A DNA stretch of 64,000 nt from positions 1,550,001-1,614,000 of the forward strand of contig JACJID010000001.1 of the NCBI GenBank assembly GCA_014138725.1, written 5' to 3'. The position numbers and the translations under genes are program-made. Within the stretch, counting starts at the first letter, position 1, and each line of letters begins with the position of its first letter. This document shows positions 49,844 to 57,976 of the stretch, in pieces. The stretch comes from Kutzneria viridogrisea (GTDB taxonomy: Bacteria > Actinomycetota > Actinomycetes > Mycobacteriales > Pseudonocardiaceae). The notes below the pieces were generated by a model. It worked only from the letters and a program-made list of their open reading frames with translations. It was not told the origin of the DNA and did not search any database.

Positions 49844-51262
49844 TCAGCCCACCACCGCCGAGCTGGCGATCTTCCACTGGCCGTCCTGCTGGACCAGGCC
49901 GAACTGGGTTCGCTCCTGGGTGACGTGCCCGTCGCGGTGCACGTAGGCGATGGTGGCGGTGACCCGGTCCGGCGGGCTGGCCACCACGTCGGAGGCGCTG
50001 GCGCTGGTGTACTGCTGCCAGAAGCCCTGGTAACCGGCGTAGCCACCGGCGTGGCCCTGCTGGTAGCCCGCGGTCATCCGGTTCCAGCCCTGGGCCAGGT
50101 CGTGCGGCACCAGCCCGTAGTAGCTGGTGATCGCCGAGGTGAGCTGGGCCGAGAGGTCCTGCGGGGCGGCGGTCGTGGTCGACGGAGTCGTGGTGGACGG
50201 GGGCGGCTGCTGCGTGGTCGTCGTCGTGGTCGTCGTGGTGGTGGGCGCGGTGGTCGTCGGCTTGGCGGAACCGGTCGTGACCGCCGGGGGCTGCCCGTCG
50301 GCCGCCGGGCTCTGGTTGGGCGTGTTCAGCACCACCACGACCGCCAGGCCGATCACCACGACCACGGCCGCCGCGGCGAGCAGCAGCACGCGCCTGCGCC
50401 GCTGCTGGTCCGGTGCGGCGGCAGCGGGCACCTCGGCCGCGGCGGCCTCGACCACCGCGCTGAGCACCTCGTGCACCTGCTGCGCGGTCGGGCGGTCCTC
50501 GGGGTCCTGGCGCAGCATGGCCACCAGCGGGGCGGTCAGCGGCCCGGCCTGCGCGGGCTCGGTCGCCTCCTGGGTGGCGATCCGGTGCAGCAGGGCGATC
50601 GGGTTGCTGTCCACGCCGAACGGGGGTGCGCCCTCCACGGCCGCGTACAGCGTGGCGCCGAGGGAGAACACGTCGCTGGCGAAGCCGCCCTCCTGCCCGC
50701 GGGCGATCTCCGGGGCGAGGTAGGCGGGGGTGCCCGCCAGCAGACCGGTACCGGTCATCGTGCCGTCGGTGGTCGCCTGGGAGATGCCGAAGTCGGTGAG
50801 CTTGACGGTGCCGTCGGCGGCGAGCAGCACGTTGGCCGGTTTGACGTCGCGGTGCACGACCCCGGCCTTCTGGGCGGCGGCGAGCGCAGCGGCCAACTGC
50901 ACCCCGATCCGGGCCACCCGCGCCGCGGGCAGCACCGGTTGCGCGGCCAGCAGGTCCGCCAGGCTCTGCGAGGGCAGGTACTCCATGATCAGGCAGGGGC
51001 GGCCCTCGTGCTGCACCACGTCGTAGACCGCGGTGGCGTTCGGGTGGTGCAGCCGCGCCGCGATCCGGCCCTCCCGCATGGCCCTGCGGCGGGCCTCGTC
51101 GGACTGGGCCTGGCTCATGCCCGGGTGCACGAGCAGTTCCTTCACCGCGACGTCGCGGTGCAGCAGGGTGTCCTCGGCACGCCAGACCACGCCCATCGCC
51201 CCGCTGCCCACGCGGGACACCAGCCGGTAGCGCTCGGCGACCAGGTCACCGTTGTTGCCCAC
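49844..51262 (-). CDS. Membrane-anchored Ser/Thr protein kinase (PknB-type)
   Basis: About 472 residues. Kinase domain 10-270: Gly loop VGSGAMGVVW, Lys in DVAVKEL, catalytic HRDVKPANVLL, DFGISQ, and APE in AYLAPEIARG. Then a cytosolic juxtamembrane part, one membrane segment (VLLLAAAAVVVVIGLAVVV near 295), a Thr/Pro-rich linker containing a run of ten Thr, and an extracellular C-terminal domain of about 95 residues of NTF2-like appearance, with no PASTA repeats. GTG 51262 has GGAG seven bases upstream; GTG 51268 would add two residues. Confidence 0.9.
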   Translation of the reverse strand: MGNNGDLVAERYRLVSRVGSGAMGVVWRAEDTLLHRDVAVKELLVHPGMSQAQSDEARRRAMREGRIAARLHHPNATAVYDVVQHEGRPCLIMEYLPSQSLADLLAAQPVLPAARVARIGVQLAAALAAAQKAGVVHRDVKPANVLLAADGTVKLTDFGISQATTDGTMTGTGLLAGTPAYLAPEIARGQEGGFASDVFSLGATLYAAVEGAPPFGVDSNPIALLHRIATQEATEPAQAGPLTAPLVAMLRQDPEDRPTAQQVHEVLSAVVEAAAAEVPAAAAPDQQRRRRVLLLAAAAVVVVIGLAVVVVLNTPNQSPAADGQPPAVTTGSAKPTTTAPTTTTTTTTTTQQPPPSTTTPSTTTAAPQDLSAQLTSAITSYYGLVPHDLAQGWNRMTAGYQQGHAGGYAGYQGFWQQYTSASASDVVASPPDRVTATIAYVHRDGHVTQERTQFGLVQQDGQWKIASSAVVG

Positions 51263-51470
51263 AGCCACACTCCAGAAGTCCGCTCCTGCTCACCTGCACG
51301 ACCCATCCTGGCACCAGCGGTGAGCACCGAGGCCCGCGTCGAACGTGTTTTCGGTCGCGCCGGGCGGGGTAGCCGTGCACGACCACGGCGGCGCAGCGGC
51401 CGCAGAGGACCGAGCCGGACCCGGAGGAGGCGGTGTGGGAGTGGACCACCGGCCAGGACAGGTCGCACAC
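51246..51470 (-). CDS. Possible small CxxC protein overlapping the kinase start
   Basis: 74-residue frame from GTG 51470. The first half (CDLSWPVVHSHTASSGSGSV, LCGRCAAVVV) resembles short actinobacterial zinc-ribbon-like proteins with one CxxC. The second half has no similarity I recognise and may be out of the true frame. It overlaps the kinase start by 17 bases. Low confidence; could be chance in GC-rich DNA or a decayed gene. Confidence 0.3.
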   Translation of the reverse strand: MCDLSWPVVHSHTASSGSGSVLCGRCAAVVVHGYPARRDRKHVRRGPRCSPLVPGWVVQVSRSGLLECGCGQQR

Positions 51471-53145: not shown

Positions 53146-54795
53146 GTGACTGAGACCGAACAGGTCCTGCCCCTGTCCGCCGCGGCCCTCGCCCCGGCCG
53201 TGGACCAGGCACCGCTGGCCGCTGTCGTGGTGACCGCCGCCGGATCGGTCCACGCGGCCAACCAGGCGGCCCGCACGGTGTTCGCCCACCTCGAAGCGGG
53301 CAGCACGCTGGAGGAGGGCCTGCCCTCGTGGTTGACCGACGCCCACCACGGGTTCCTCGACCAGCGCGGACCCGGCGGCCGACCACAGCCCACCGGGCGG
53401 ATCGGCGAGCGCAGCTTCGAGGCCCACCCCGTGCGGTTGGCCGGGGACAGCGTGGTGTGGTGGCTCGTCGAGGACACCGACGCCCAGTTGGCCCGGCACG
53501 CCCTGGGCCTGGAACGTGCGCGCACCGCTTTCCTCACCGAGGCGTCCAGTGCGCTGCTGTCCTCGCTGAACCTGCGGCGCTGCATGGAGGTGGTCGCGCA
53601 GTTGGCGGCCGAGCACCTGGCCGATGCCGCGTTCGTGATCGCCCCCTCGTATCGCCGCGTGTTCCCCTCGGTGCGCTGCCTGCGCGGCGAGGAGCCCGCG
53701 CACGTGGAACTCCAGGTCGATTCGCAGGAGGTCCCCGGTCTGGCCGAGGCGTTGCAGGGCTTCCCGCCCGTGCCCTCGCGGTGGATCGACCCCGCCGCGG
53801 CCCCGGCCTGGCTCGTGCCCGGGGAGTTCGGCGAGGTCGGCTCGATCGTGGTCACCCCGTTGCCCGGTCACGGAGTTCCCGCGGGCGCGCTCGTCCTGCT
53901 GCGTGCCGCCGAGCACGCGGTGTTCAGCCAGGACGAGGAGGTCTTCGCCCGCCTGTTCGCGGCGCGGTCGGGCGCCGCGATGTCGGCCGCGCGCATGTTC
54001 GCCGAGCAGGTCTCGATCAACGACACCCTCATGCGCGACCTGCTGCCGCCCGTCCTGCACCAGATTCGCGGGGTGGAGTTCGCGGGCAGGTACCGGGCCT
54101 CGCTGGACAGCGAACGCGTGGGCGGGGACTTCTACGACGTGCACCCCGGCACGGACGAGGACGTGGAGTCGCTGGCCGTGCTCGGCGACGTGGCGGGCAA
54201 GGGCCTGGAGGCGGCCGTGCTCACCGGCAAGATCCGCACCACCCTGCACGCGCTGCTGCCGATGGCCGAGGACCACTCCCGTCTGCTCGGCCTGCTCAAC
54301 GACGCGCTGCTCAGCGCCGACAGCACGCGCTTCGTCACCCTCGTGCTCGCCTCCGCGGTCCGCCGAGGGCCCGAGGTCCACCTGCGGGTGACCAGTGCCG
54401 GGCACCCGCCGCCCCTGATCGTGCGGGCCACCGGCGAGGTGGAGGAGGTGCCCACCCGCGGCCCGCTGATCGGGGTGCTGCCCGAGGTCGTGGTCGAGAC
54501 CGCGCACATCGCGCTGGCCCCGGGGGAGACCTGCCTGGTGTTCACCGACGGCGTCACCGAGGCCGTGGGCGGCCCGCTGGGCGAGGAGATGTTCGGCGAG
54601 GACCGCCTGCGCCGCGTGCTGGCCGAGTGCGGGGGCATGCCCGCGGAGGCCGTGGTGGAACGGGTGCACATGCTGGCCGCGCAGTGGATCGGCCGGGGCG
54701 GGCACGACGACATGGCGGTGCTGGCGATCACCGCGCCGCGCGGGCAGCACCTGACGGCCGTGGGCGGACAGGGGCGCGGCAGGTACACCGCATGA
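53146..54795 (+). CDS. SpoIIE-type PP2C phosphatase with PAS and GAF domains
   Basis: Serine phosphatase that would dephosphorylate a STAS anti-anti-sigma protein. 549 residues: PAS-like region (15-115, VDQAPLAAVVVTAAGSVHAA), GAF (125-290, FLTEASSALLSSLNLRRCM), then SpoIIE/PP2C (305-540) with metal motifs VGGDFYDV, LGDVAGKGLEAAVL, AGHPPPLIV, FTDGVTEAVGG and GHDDMAVLAI. All PP2C Asp ligands appear intact. GTG 53146 is used although its ribosome site is weak. It is coupled by ATGA to the cobalamin-binding gene, which is coupled to the STAS gene, so phosphatase, sensor and target are co-translated. Confidence 0.93.
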   Translation: MTETEQVLPLSAAALAPAVDQAPLAAVVVTAAGSVHAANQAARTVFAHLEAGSTLEEGLPSWLTDAHHGFLDQRGPGGRPQPTGRIGERSFEAHPVRLAGDSVVWWLVEDTDAQLARHALGLERARTAFLTEASSALLSSLNLRRCMEVVAQLAAEHLADAAFVIAPSYRRVFPSVRCLRGEEPAHVELQVDSQEVPGLAEALQGFPPVPSRWIDPAAAPAWLVPGEFGEVGSIVVTPLPGHGVPAGALVLLRAAEHAVFSQDEEVFARLFAARSGAAMSAARMFAEQVSINDTLMRDLLPPVLHQIRGVEFAGRYRASLDSERVGGDFYDVHPGTDEDVESLAVLGDVAGKGLEAAVLTGKIRTTLHALLPMAEDHSRLLGLLNDALLSADSTRFVTLVLASAVRRGPEVHLRVTSAGHPPPLIVRATGEVEEVPTRGPLIGVLPEVVVETAHIALAPGETCLVFTDGVTEAVGGPLGEEMFGEDRLRRVLAECGGMPAEAVVERVHMLAAQWIGRGGHDDMAVLAITAPRGQHLTAVGGQGRGRYTA

Positions 54796-55880
54796 GCCTC
54801 GCACCACCCCGTGCCGAGCTGCGCGAGTACGTGGACGCCCTGTGGGCGGCGGTCCGCGACGGGGACGAGCACGCCGCGGGCGAGGTCGCCACCGCGGCGT
54901 TGGCGGCCGGGCTGGACGAGGAGAGCCTGCTGCTCGACGTCATCGGCACGGTGCAGCGCACCGTGGGCCAGGAGTGGGCCGCCAACCGGCTGACCGTCGC
55001 CCAGGAGCACACCGCCACCGCCATCAACGACCGCGTGATCGCCGCGCTGGCCCACCGCCCCGGCCGTCGCCGTGCGGACTCGCGCGGCCGGGTGACGGTG
55101 GCCTGCGTGGACGGGGAGTGGCACGCCCTGCCCGCGCGGCTGCTGGCCGAGGTGCTGACCCTGCGCGGTTTCGCGGTGGACTACCTCGGAGCGCAGGTGC
55201 CGGCCCCGCACCTGATCGCCCACCTGCACCGCACCGGACCGGACGCGGTCGCGCTGTCCAGTTCGATCGCGACCCGGCTGCCCACCGCACACGCCACCAT
55301 CACGGCCTGCCAGGCGGCCGGGGTGCCGGTGATCGCGGGCGGGGCCGCGTTCGGACCCGACGGCCGGTACGCCCGGCTGCTGGGCGCCGAGGCCTGGGAG
55401 CCCGACGCCCGCGCGGCGGCCGACCGGCTCAGCGTCGAACCGCTGCCCCGTCCCGGTCCCGGCGGGCACCAGGTGCTCGACCACCTGCCGCACCTGGCCG
55501 ACCAGGAGTACACGATGGTCTCGCGCAACTCCGCCCAACTGGTCAAGGCGGTGTTCGCCGGGCTGGAGCGGGACACGCCCGCGATGCGCCAGTACACCGA
55601 CCTCCAGCGCCAGCACACCGCCGACGACCTCGCGCACATCGTCGAGTTCCTCGCCACGGCGCTCTACGTGGGCGATCCCGCGCTGTTCGGCGGTTTCCTG
55701 ACCTGGACCGCCGACATCCTCACCGCCCGCGGTGTGCCCGCGCAGTCCCTGGTACCCGCGGTGCGCCTGCTGGAGGTCGAACTGCGCGACTTCCCCCGGG
55801 CCACCGAGATGCTCGCCCGGGCCCGCGCGCAGGTGGGCCGCCACACCGCCGCTGTCGCCGAGCCCGGGAAGCCCGCATGA
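54792..55880 (+). CDS. Cobalamin (B12)-binding sensor protein with photoreceptor-type Wx9EH motif
   Basis: 362 residues. Residues 1-90 form the helical B12-binding cap; W62 followed after exactly nine residues by E72-H73 gives the Wx9EH motif known from AdoCbl-dependent CarH/LitR light sensors. Residues 98-210 form the Rossmann-like B12 domain; GEWHAL (H111) is at the position of the lower-ligand His motif, and DYLGAQVP and GVPVIAGGAAFGPDG follow. Residues 225-350 are a helical domain of unknown type (SRNSAQLVKAVFAGLERDTP, DPALFGGFLTWTADILTARG). There is no DNA-binding domain. Its position between SpoIIE phosphatase and STAS suggests it gates partner switching in response to light or cobalamin. 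Methyltransferase or mutase activation is less likely, as no catalytic domain is present. Confidence 0.85.
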   Translation: MSLAPPRAELREYVDALWAAVRDGDEHAAGEVATAALAAGLDEESLLLDVIGTVQRTVGQEWAANRLTVAQEHTATAINDRVIAALAHRPGRRRADSRGRVTVACVDGEWHALPARLLAEVLTLRGFAVDYLGAQVPAPHLIAHLHRTGPDAVALSSSIATRLPTAHATITACQAAGVPVIAGGAAFGPDGRYARLLGAEAWEPDARAAADRLSVEPLPRPGPGGHQVLDHLPHLADQEYTMVSRNSAQLVKAVFAGLERDTPAMRQYTDLQRQHTADDLAHIVEFLATALYVGDPALFGGFLTWTADILTARGVPAQSLVPAVRLLEVELRDFPRATEMLARARAQVGRHTAAVAEPGKPA

Positions 55881-56239
55881 CCACGTCCCACCGACTGACC
55901 TGCACCTGGACCGCGCCGGACGAGCACACCTGCCAGGTCGTGGTCGAGGGCGAGCTCACCTACGACAGCGCCGACGAACTCCTGCGCTCCTCGGTGCGGC
56001 ACATCCAGGACCGGCCCGCGCTGCGTGAGCTGCGCGTGGACTGCGCGGGGCTGGGCGTGTGCGATTCGTGGGGACTGGCCGTGCTGTTGCAGATCCGCCG
56101 TCACCTGCTGGCCGCGAACGCCGGTCTGAGCCTGGACAACCGCTCGCGGGCGTTCGAGCGCCTGCTGGACATCACCGGCACGCTGGGGTTCCTGACCGGT
56201 ACGCCCCCGCTCACCCGAGGGCAGTCCCAGGACTCCTGA
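55877..56239 (+). CDS. STAS-domain anti-sigma factor antagonist
   Basis: 120 residues, ATG overlapping the cobalamin-binding gene stop (ATGA). CQVVVEGELTYDSADELL and LRVDCAGLGVCDSWGLAVLLQI are STAS hallmarks; Ser64, directly after Asp63, occupies the phospho-acceptor position of RsbV/SpoIIAA-type proteins, with Trp65 in place of the usual Ser/Thr. Unphosphorylated, it would sequester an anti-sigma kinase and free a sigma factor. Its last 29 bases overlap the convergent HATPase gene. Confidence 0.9.
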   Translation: MTTSHRLTCTWTAPDEHTCQVVVEGELTYDSADELLRSSVRHIQDRPALRELRVDCAGLGVCDSWGLAVLLQIRRHLLAANAGLSLDNRSRAFERLLDITGTLGFLTGTPPLTRGQSQDS

Positions 56240-56633
56240 GGGCGTGGTGTGGCGCGAACTCCACCCACACCGCCTTGCCCTCGGCAGTGGGCCGCCAGCC
56301 CCAGCGGCTGGCGTACGCGGTCACCATGACCAGACCCCGGCCCCGGTGTTCATCGGGCCGAGGTGACCGCACCTTCGGTGGCTGGGCCGAACAATCGCTC
56401 ACCTCGACCCGGACCGTGCTGCCCTCGCCGAGCACGAGGGCGAGTTCGACGGGCGCCTCGCCGTGCTCGTAGGCGTTGAGCACCAGTTCGCTCGCGGTGA
56501 GGACCACGTCGTCGCGGGTGTCGGCCGGGTGCTCGTCCAGCAGGGCTGCGGTCCAGGAGCGGACCTGGCGCAACGGGGGAGGACCGGTCCGCGGCAGCGG
56601 CAGGACCTGTCGATCACTCATCACCTGGGTCAT
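56211..56633 (-). CDS. HATPase anti-sigma regulatory kinase (RsbW-like)
   Basis: 140 residues from ATG 56633, with GAAGGGG nine bases upstream; GTG 56660 and ATG 56621 are alternatives. N box VVLTASELVLNAYEHGEAPVE, then VEVSDCS and the glycine-rich GRGLVMVTAYASRWGW loop are typical of the small actinomycete RsbW/SpoIIAB-like proteins. It faces the STAS gene tail to tail with a 29-base overlap, and is the obvious kinase partner for STAS Ser64. No sigma-factor gene lies next to it, so the target must be elsewhere. Confidence 0.88.
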   Translation of the reverse strand: MTQVMSDRQVLPLPRTGPPPLRQVRSWTAALLDEHPADTRDDVVLTASELVLNAYEHGEAPVELALVLGEGSTVRVEVSDCSAQPPKVRSPRPDEHRGRGLVMVTAYASRWGWRPTAEGKAVWVEFAPHHALRSPGTALG

Positions 56634-57130: not shown

Positions 57131-57976
57131 TCACCTCGCAGGGGTGAGCTCCCGGTCGCCGATGCGGGCGAGCCTGCGCAGTTGCTCGACGGCGGGACTG
57201 CCCACCGGGGCGGTGAAGAACTGGAGCCGCTGCCGACCGTCCTCGCTGAACAGGTTCTGGCACTGGATGTCGACCACGCCCAGCACGGGGTGGATCACGC
57301 GCTTGCGTTCACCGCGGCGGACGGCGACGTCGCCGGTGTCCCACAGCGCGGCGAACTCCGGGCTGGCACGGCGCAGGAGGTGCACCAACTCCGTGGACCG
57401 TGCGTCGTGGTTACGGCGTGCGACGGCGGCCCGCAGGTCGAAGACCAGGACCCTGGAGTGGTGCGGGTGGTCGGCCACCGGGTAGAGCAGCCGGCTTTCG
57501 GGCTCGGTGAACCAGCGGTACACGAAGCTGGCCGCGTGCCCCTCGGTGTGTGCGGGCGGGCCCATCAACGCCGCGGCGAGGCGGTTCTGCACGAGGGTCT
57601 CGTGCAGGTCGGTGACGATCTGCGCCGGGGTCTGGTCGAGCCGGTCGAGCAGGGTCAGCATGGCCGGTTGCACGTGCACCGCCGTGCCGTGTGCCTCCGG
57701 TGCCGCGCGGCCCGCGAGCCGGAACAGGTGATCGCGCTCGTCGGCGTCCAGGCGCAGCGCGCGGGCCAGGGCCGCCAGCACCTGCGTGGACGGCTGAGCT
57801 CCCCGGCCGCGCTCCACCTCGGTGTAGTAGTCCACCGAGGTACCGGCCAGCTGGGCGACCTCGTCGCGGCGCAGACCGGGCACCCGGCGGCGGGACCCGG
57901 TGGGCAGCCCCACCTCCGCGGGGCTGATCCGCGCACGCCGTGACCGCAGGAAGGCCCCGAGCTCAGGCAGGTTCAC
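57131..57976 (-). CDS. XRE-family regulator with MmyB-like ligand domain
   Basis: 281 residues, GTG 57976. N-terminal HTH: LGAFLRSRRARISPAEVGL, PGLRRDEVAQLAGTSVDYYTEVERGRG, the signature of MmyB-type actinomycete regulators. The C-terminal part (100-281) is the MmyB PAS-like ligand domain (SFVYRWFTEPESRLLYP, LVHLLRRASPEFAALWDTGDV). Members typically repress a divergently placed redox gene; here the neighbour is a tautomerase with a palindromic site between them. Confidence 0.9.
   Translation of the reverse strand: MNLPELGAFLRSRRARISPAEVGLPTGSRRRVPGLRRDEVAQLAGTSVDYYTEVERGRGAQPSTQVLAALARALRLDADERDHLFRLAGRAAPEAHGTAVHVQPAMLTLLDRLDQTPAQIVTDLHETLVQNRLAAALMGPPAHTEGHAASFVYRWFTEPESRLLYPVADHPHHSRVLVFDLRAAVARRNHDARSTELVHLLRRASPEFAALWDTGDVAVRRGERKRVIHPVLGVVDIQCQNLFSEDGRQRLQFFTAPVGSPAVEQLRRLARIGDRELTPAR

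Follow-up and report, generated by a model that had tools for sequence, protein, structure and literature searches.

We analyzed a locus at positions 53146-56633 of a 64-kb window of Kutzneria viridogrisea DNA (the window is the whole stretch analyzed, 64,000 nucleotides, and positions are numbered within it), in which the gene of a B12-binding light-sensor-type protein lies between the genes of a phosphatase and a STAS-domain protein. The phosphatase gene (53146..54795, plus strand, GTG start) encodes a PP2C/SpoIIE-family protein of 549 residues (Pfam SpoIIE, 2e-41), and its stop codon overlaps the start codon of the B12 protein gene in an ATGA (54792..54795, plus strand). The B12 protein, a photocobilin of 362 residues (54792..55880, plus strand; Pfam B12-binding_2, 3e-12, and B12-binding, 2e-16), ends in a second ATGA (55877..55880, plus strand) that starts the gene of a STAS-domain, anti-anti-sigma-type protein of 120 residues with Ser64 in a DSWG motif (55877..56239, plus strand; Pfam STAS_2, 5e-14). 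A convergent gene on the minus strand (56211..56633; Pfam HATPase_c_2, 3e-12) encodes an RsbW-like HATPase of 140 residues, a candidate kinase/anti-sigma partner, and overlaps the STAS gene tail to tail by 29 nucleotides (nt; 56211-56239). An earlier note on this DNA had described these four genes and the two overlaps; both overlaps were read directly in the DNA, and Pfam confirmed the domain of each gene.

By sequence and fold, the B12 protein is a photocobilin over its whole length. The earlier note had placed it closest to the CarH/LitR light sensors, lacking their MerR domain and carrying an unassigned C-terminus. A Pfam scan indeed found no MerR domain, and no match past residue 194, and the score with the NCBIfam CarH model was 45 bits, where the cut-off is 400. 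A phmmer search against solved structures returned 19 distinct sequences at E <= 0.001, headed by SasPcob (8j2w and 8j2x; E 6.1e-81 and 6.5e-81, residues 16-351) and then by an Acidimicrobiaceae photocobilin (8j2y, 4.4e-36). Lower down came corrinoid proteins, the best of them at 1.9e-11, and CarH-type proteins, led by 8jbs at 5e-10, with TtCarH at 1e-8. Identity to SasPcob was 156 of 327 aligned residues (48%; 46% by Foldseek). The AlphaFold2 (AF2) model, built on an alignment of 43 sequences, had a mean predicted local distance difference test score (pLDDT) of 92.9 and a predicted TM-score (pTM) of 0.89, and in Foldseek it matched 8j2x over 342 columns with a query TM-score (TMq) of 0.87 and a target TM-score (TMt) of 0.93; the values for 8j2y were 0.80 and 0.88. 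CarH/LitR-type chains among the best 50 Foldseek rows reached a TMq of only 0.44-0.52, because they lack the last third of the photocobilin. The protein consists of a helical cap (residues 1-87), a Rossmann B12 domain (99-215) and a C-terminal helical domain (233-356), so that it shows the mark of the family, a globin-like (photoglobin) domain joined to a pair of B12 domains. Since the match to SasPcob runs over the full length in both phmmer and AF2/Foldseek, we assign the C-terminus as a bilin-binding photoglobin domain. We also considered a CarH-like regulator that had merely lost its DNA-binding part and rejected it, as photocobilin fits the whole length.

The residues expected of a dual B12 and bilin receptor are in place. 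The chromophore-contact residues named for SasPcob are W61, E71, H72, H108, H137, D270 and W296 (PMC10979010), and they correspond to W62, E72, H73, H111, H140, D279 and W305 of the window protein, all present, as mapped by hand on the phmmer alignment with the letters then verified in the sequence. They include the whole set for the adenosylcobalamin (AdoCbl) photoswitch, namely the Trp, the Glu-His pair and the axial His, together with the three biliverdin contacts (H137, D270 and W296 of SasPcob). The spacing of W62 and E72-H73 (Wx9EH) and the position of H111 in GEWHAL are exactly as the earlier note had given them. Nor is Wx9EH tolerant of mutation, which that note had named as grounds against its own reading: over 132 distinct homologues, chosen as described below, W62 was kept in 131 and E72, H73 and H111 in all 132. 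W305 was likewise kept in 132 of 132, including all 21 distant homologues. H140 and D279 occurred in 111 and 110 of the 111 closer homologues, and in 6 and 5 of the 21 distant ones.

Homologues were collected in several searches. In the same order, 335 of 397 genomes matched the photocobilin at E <= 0.001, many of them weakly, and 89, the window's own included, matched at E 1e-70 or better; 35 of 396 genomes drawn from the phylum matched the photocobilin profile at E <= 1e-25. Scanning a named genome collection with two peptide patterns gave 553 stretches, 514 with a relative at E <= 1e-3; these relatives need not all be photocobilins, and the best 80 were kept, with Amycolatopsis, Saccharothrix, Streptomyces, Pseudonocardia, Actinomadura, Mycobacterium, Nocardioides and others among their genera. 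Adding 60 loci chosen from the order search made 140, and removal of 8 duplicates left the 132 distinct homologues.

In 125 of the 132, a same-strand SpoIIE gene lay no more than 300 nt upstream; in 96, all of which also had the SpoIIE gene, a STAS gene followed within 350 nt downstream. SpoIIE occurred without a STAS gene detectable within 350 nt at 29 loci, and STAS without SpoIIE at none. Grouped by profile score, the loci at 470 or above (n = 100) had SpoIIE in 99 and STAS in 82, those at 400-470 (n = 11) in 10 and 8, and those below 400 (n = 21) in 16 and 6; grouped by source, the counts were 79 and 65 of the 79 distinct loci from the named collection and 46 and 31 of the 53 from the order search. 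The junctions are equally regular: SpoIIE and photocobilin meet in ATGA or GTGA in 108 of the 125 linked homologues, and photocobilin and STAS do so in 87 of the 96. In the whole window genome (10.25 Mb) just 7 SpoIIE domains were found at E <= 0.001, and at about one gene per kilobase we estimate the chance of a SpoIIE neighbour at roughly one in a thousand; a SpoIIE gene upstream in 125 of 132 homologues is therefore more than chance. The coupling with phosphatase and STAS genes that the earlier note saw in one genome, with its suggestion to look for the same order elsewhere, thus holds across genomes, 96 of the 132 loci keeping the complete order.

The phosphatase and the photocobilin appear to have been inherited together. 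Their tree distances correlated at 0.97 over the 125 pairs, 0.83 over the closest 99 and 0.96 over 16 distant ones, values that shared species history also raises, and the closest 99 pairs form one clade in both trees. In the four genomes with two operons that were compared, the SpoIIE of the second operon was in no case one of the five nearest to its genome-mate; three were nearest other second-type operons and one (L156) was nearest an intermediate group. The window photocobilin itself falls among its closest homologues and outside the group of SasPcob, which joins L156 and a second photocobilin of the window genome, L154 (node supports 0.91 and 0.95, with weak nodes, at most 0.51, above them). 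L154 (contig C1, about 2150590-2151552) is 38% identical to the window protein, and neither SpoIIE nor STAS was detected beside it.

The AF2 model of the window phosphatase (pLDDT 90.1, pTM 0.66) has a PAS-like domain at about 12-110, a GAF-like domain at about 143-254 and a PP2C domain at about 305-530, and the 38-residue helix at 262-299 is predicted to be a coiled-coil-type linker. Profile searches matched the phosphatases Rv1364c, RssB, SiaA and SpoIIE as well as DevS GAF structures, and Foldseek placed the RsbU domain of Rv1364c first, with RssB, SiaA and SpoIIE among those that followed. At E <= 0.01 Pfam found GAF (PF01590) in 21 and PAS_4 in 3 of 33 aligned phosphatases, and neither in the window copy. 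Asp 328, 348, 468 and 522, which we take to be the metal-binding aspartates of PP2C enzymes, are invariant in all 33.

The STAS protein keeps its presumed phosphorylation site as well. Ser64 in the DSxG motif, which we take to stand at the place of the phospho-serine of SpoIIAA and RsbV, is kept in 94 of the 96 linked STAS proteins; the window copy scored 39 bits against the NCBIfam anti-sigma antagonist model, under its cut-off of 53. The HATPase, which the earlier note had counted as part of the unit, is not a conserved neighbour. It scored 37 bits against NCBIfam RsbA, far under the cut-off of 210, and HATPase copies near photocobilin operons (in G118 and G090, and near second-type operons in G014, G083 and G150) were 35-44% identical to it and never the best match of their genome. 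We therefore rejected it as a conserved fourth member, the single-protein query having found no best-match copy beside the operons. HATPase scores of about 150-190 were seen beside some Amycolatopsis operons, but they came from a profile built from 11 of the same loci, and we do not take these copies as orthologs. At seven Amycolatopsis loci (L034-L036, L040, L042, L043 and L046) a weak STAS match and a HATPase gene lie upstream of SpoIIE on the same strand, giving a fuller partner-switching set around the photocobilin in which the order of STAS and HATPase varies.

Several published properties of photocobilins and phosphatases bear on how these proteins may work together. Light frees the adenosyl group of SasPcob and breaks its dimer, photocobilins alter diguanylate cyclase activity in trans, and biliverdin reverses the direction in which SasPcob acts on the cyclase (PMC10979010). 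Through biliverdin, red light can also drive B12 photochemistry (PMC11796333), and PP2C phosphatases are controlled by coiled-coil linkers (PMC12143880). Given the operon coupling, a linker of this kind and the in-trans precedent, it is most likely that the photocobilin sets the activity of the phosphatase by light, and we consider it probable, with moderate confidence, that its main output runs through the phosphatase upstream to dephosphorylation of STAS and release of a sigma factor. In the dark, a photocobilin dimer would hold AdoCbl between the cap (Trp62, Glu72-His73) and the Rossmann domain, His111 binding the cobalt, and a bilin would probably sit in the C-terminal photoglobin pocket (His140, Asp279 and Trp305). 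Green light, or red light via the bilin, would break the Co-C bond, the adenosyl group would leave and the dimer would separate, by analogy with SasPcob. The altered photocobilin may then bind or release the PAS-GAF-coiled-coil-PP2C phosphatase in trans and so shift the linker that governs how it dimerizes and whether it is active, much as RsbT acts on RsbU. The phosphatase would take the phosphate off Ser64, and the dephosphorylated STAS protein would capture an RsbW-like kinase/anti-sigma factor and free a SigB/F-type sigma factor. One SigBFG-type sigma gene elsewhere in the window genome scored over its cut-off, with a partial HATPase match 255 bp upstream, and its product is a candidate target. 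That a widespread actinobacterial circuit has been met here, in which a dual B12/bilin receptor acts as a separate subunit on a PP2C phosphatase and through it on a sigma partner switch, seems to us about an even bet.

The same gene order could also be read with the STAS protein, or the kinase/anti-sigma factor, as the main target of the photocobilin; the phosphatase would then obey signals of its own PAS and GAF domains, and the two inputs would meet at STAS. The phosphatase does own sensor-type domains, STAS follows in 96 of the 132 loci with ATGA or GTGA coupling in 87 of those 96, and the globin of RsbR is attached to a STAS domain. The photoglobin domain is related to that stressosome globin (PMC10151467). 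SpoIIE is nevertheless the steadier neighbour (125 against 96), and the 29 loci with SpoIIE alone have no counterpart with STAS alone, and we hold this arrangement to be unlikely. Another view keeps the operon and the switch unchanged and lets the photocobilin sense the AdoCbl level or the redox state and not light. CarH-type proteins change their oligomeric state on AdoCbl binding alone, and D279 is absent from 13 of the 16 distant SpoIIE-linked homologues, so the wiring can do without bilin sensing. Against it stand the near-invariance of the Trp/Glu-His cap around the adenosyl group and the role of this cap as a working photoswitch in SasPcob (PMC10979010), and we hold this view, too, to be unlikely.

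A corrinoid carrier for a methyltransferase, placed in the operon by chance, is very improbable. The protein does match NCBIfam MtgC, MtaC and MtbC, all far under cut-off, and methyltransferase corrinoid proteins in phmmer at E 2e-11, yet the photocobilin fold extends over its full length and SpoIIE adjoins 125 of 132 homologues. No methyltransferase was found among the identified clusters of recurrent neighbours in the 111 closer loci, counted from at least 12 loci, frames of at least 100 residues and pairs at E 1e-20 or stronger. These clusters comprised MarR-type regulators (18 loci), HATPases (14), short-chain dehydrogenases at scattered places (13) and one further frame in 17 loci that has no Pfam match and may be an antisense frame; apart from the three operon genes, no neighbour was widespread. 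We rejected the carrier on the SpoIIE linkage and these neighbours; a methyltransferase neighbourhood, the alternative raised by the earlier note, is not what surrounds the homologues.

Several observations weigh against control of the phosphatase by the photocobilin and the sigma switch beyond it. The proposal for the window protein is drawn from sequence comparison and models. The 132 loci were not sampled at random but taken as best hits or chosen by hand, and species history contributes to the tree correlations. The phylum search gave 41 match rows; of 20 loci taken from these, 7 had SpoIIE upstream, and the other 13, all from other classes, had neither SpoIIE nor STAS directly beside them (L186-L194 and L196-L199, where L188 offered only about 680 nt of upstream sequence for the check). 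No frame fusing phosphatase and photocobilin was found in 160 loci checked; a suspected natural fusion in L183 was rejected, as it is two separate frames. The single-protein query for the window HATPase in 20 genomes gave no regularly linked ortholog, and neither a sigma factor nor an RsbW gene was widespread among the neighbours of the 111 closer loci. A SigB-type promoter upstream of the operon was rejected, the motif occurring in 0 of 98 operons with one strict pattern (shuffled expectation, 0.7%). The direction of control cannot be predicted, because the sign of the SasPcob effect flips with biliverdin, and the supply of bilin, too, fits unevenly.

Among 14 control genomes, 3 have a heme oxygenase gene (PF01126) and 9 a cobalamin adenosyltransferase gene (PF01923), which is common; the window genome has both. 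Of the 88 other genomes with a close photocobilin, 49 were searched and 25 had PF01126; so did 6 of 17 genomes whose only photocobilin is a distant one and 20 of 51 non-carriers. The non-carriers were hand-picked, and 8 of them belong to a genus (g5) in which the order search showed no carrier. By family, carriers and non-carriers had the gene in 16 of 20 versus 12 of 24 (f1) and 8 of 19 versus 0 of 9 (f15), and in the reverse direction in 1 of 10 versus 8 of 18 (f8). Heme oxygenase and the photocobilin thus show no consistent association across the families sampled, and we dropped their co-occurrence as support for biliverdin. Biliverdin as the second chromophore is therefore uncertain, above all in f8. 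In f8, genus g32, the bilin pocket is intact and PF01126 is missing in 9 of 10 carriers searched; these may use another bilin source or another ligand. If bilin does fill the pocket of carriers without PF01126, it would be made by another route. The phosphatase wiring itself does not depend on a complete bilin pocket, as the distant, pocket-poor homologues are mostly SpoIIE-linked (16 of 21).

Photocobilins, and a possible link of SasPcob to SpoIIE and STAS, were already published in 2024 (PMC10979010). SasPcob, from Saccharothrix syringae (8j2w, 8j2x), resembles the window protein in its full-length fold, its seven contact residues and its stand-alone form, and STAS and SpoIIE proteins were proposed there as potential partners; it differs in belonging to a tree group with L156 and L154 that excludes the window protein. 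AbDPcob (8j2y) shares the module of B12 and photoglobin domains, and its light state controls a dimeric effector, also in trans; unlike the window protein it has a fused GGDEF output, and it carries a His at the position of SasPcob Asp270 and binds biliverdin weakly. The function of stand-alone photocobilins is called less clear in the same paper. CarH and LitR have the cap, the Rossmann B12 domain and the W/EH/H signature in common with the window protein, which differs by its photoglobin domain and the missing MerR domain. The RsbU/RsbP-RsbV-RsbW systems likewise have a PP2C phosphatase with N-terminal sensors and a helical linker and a STAS protein with a phospho-serine, and light input is known for YtvA (LOV-STAS). 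Here, in contrast to these systems and to RsbR, the B12/bilin sensor is a protein of its own, encoded in the phosphatase operon, and, in contrast to the Rsb systems, the kinase and the sigma factor are not among the widely recurring neighbours.

New here are the extent and specificity of the operon, its co-inheritance, the intact phosphorylation site, the predicted architecture of the phosphatase, the placement of the window protein outside the SasPcob group and the heme oxygenase mismatch. A 2022 photoglobin paper by Schneider et al. reportedly discusses gene neighbourhoods and may already show the photocobilin operon. No experimental report of B12 light sensing with protein dephosphorylation as its output was found in a literature search made without most subscription papers and preprints. 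If control of the phosphatase by the photocobilin is true, B12 light sensing would have that output, B12/bilin light sensing in Streptomyces, Amycolatopsis and their relatives would be joined to stress-type sigma control, and a trans-acting green/red optogenetic phosphatase would be at hand.

Two other regulatory genes lie near the phosphatase-photocobilin-STAS operon, one for a PknB-type Ser/Thr kinase (49844-51268, minus strand) and one for an MmyB-like transcription regulator (57131-57976, minus strand), with no sign that either belongs to it. The GC content of the window is 68-74%, taken in 4-kb steps.

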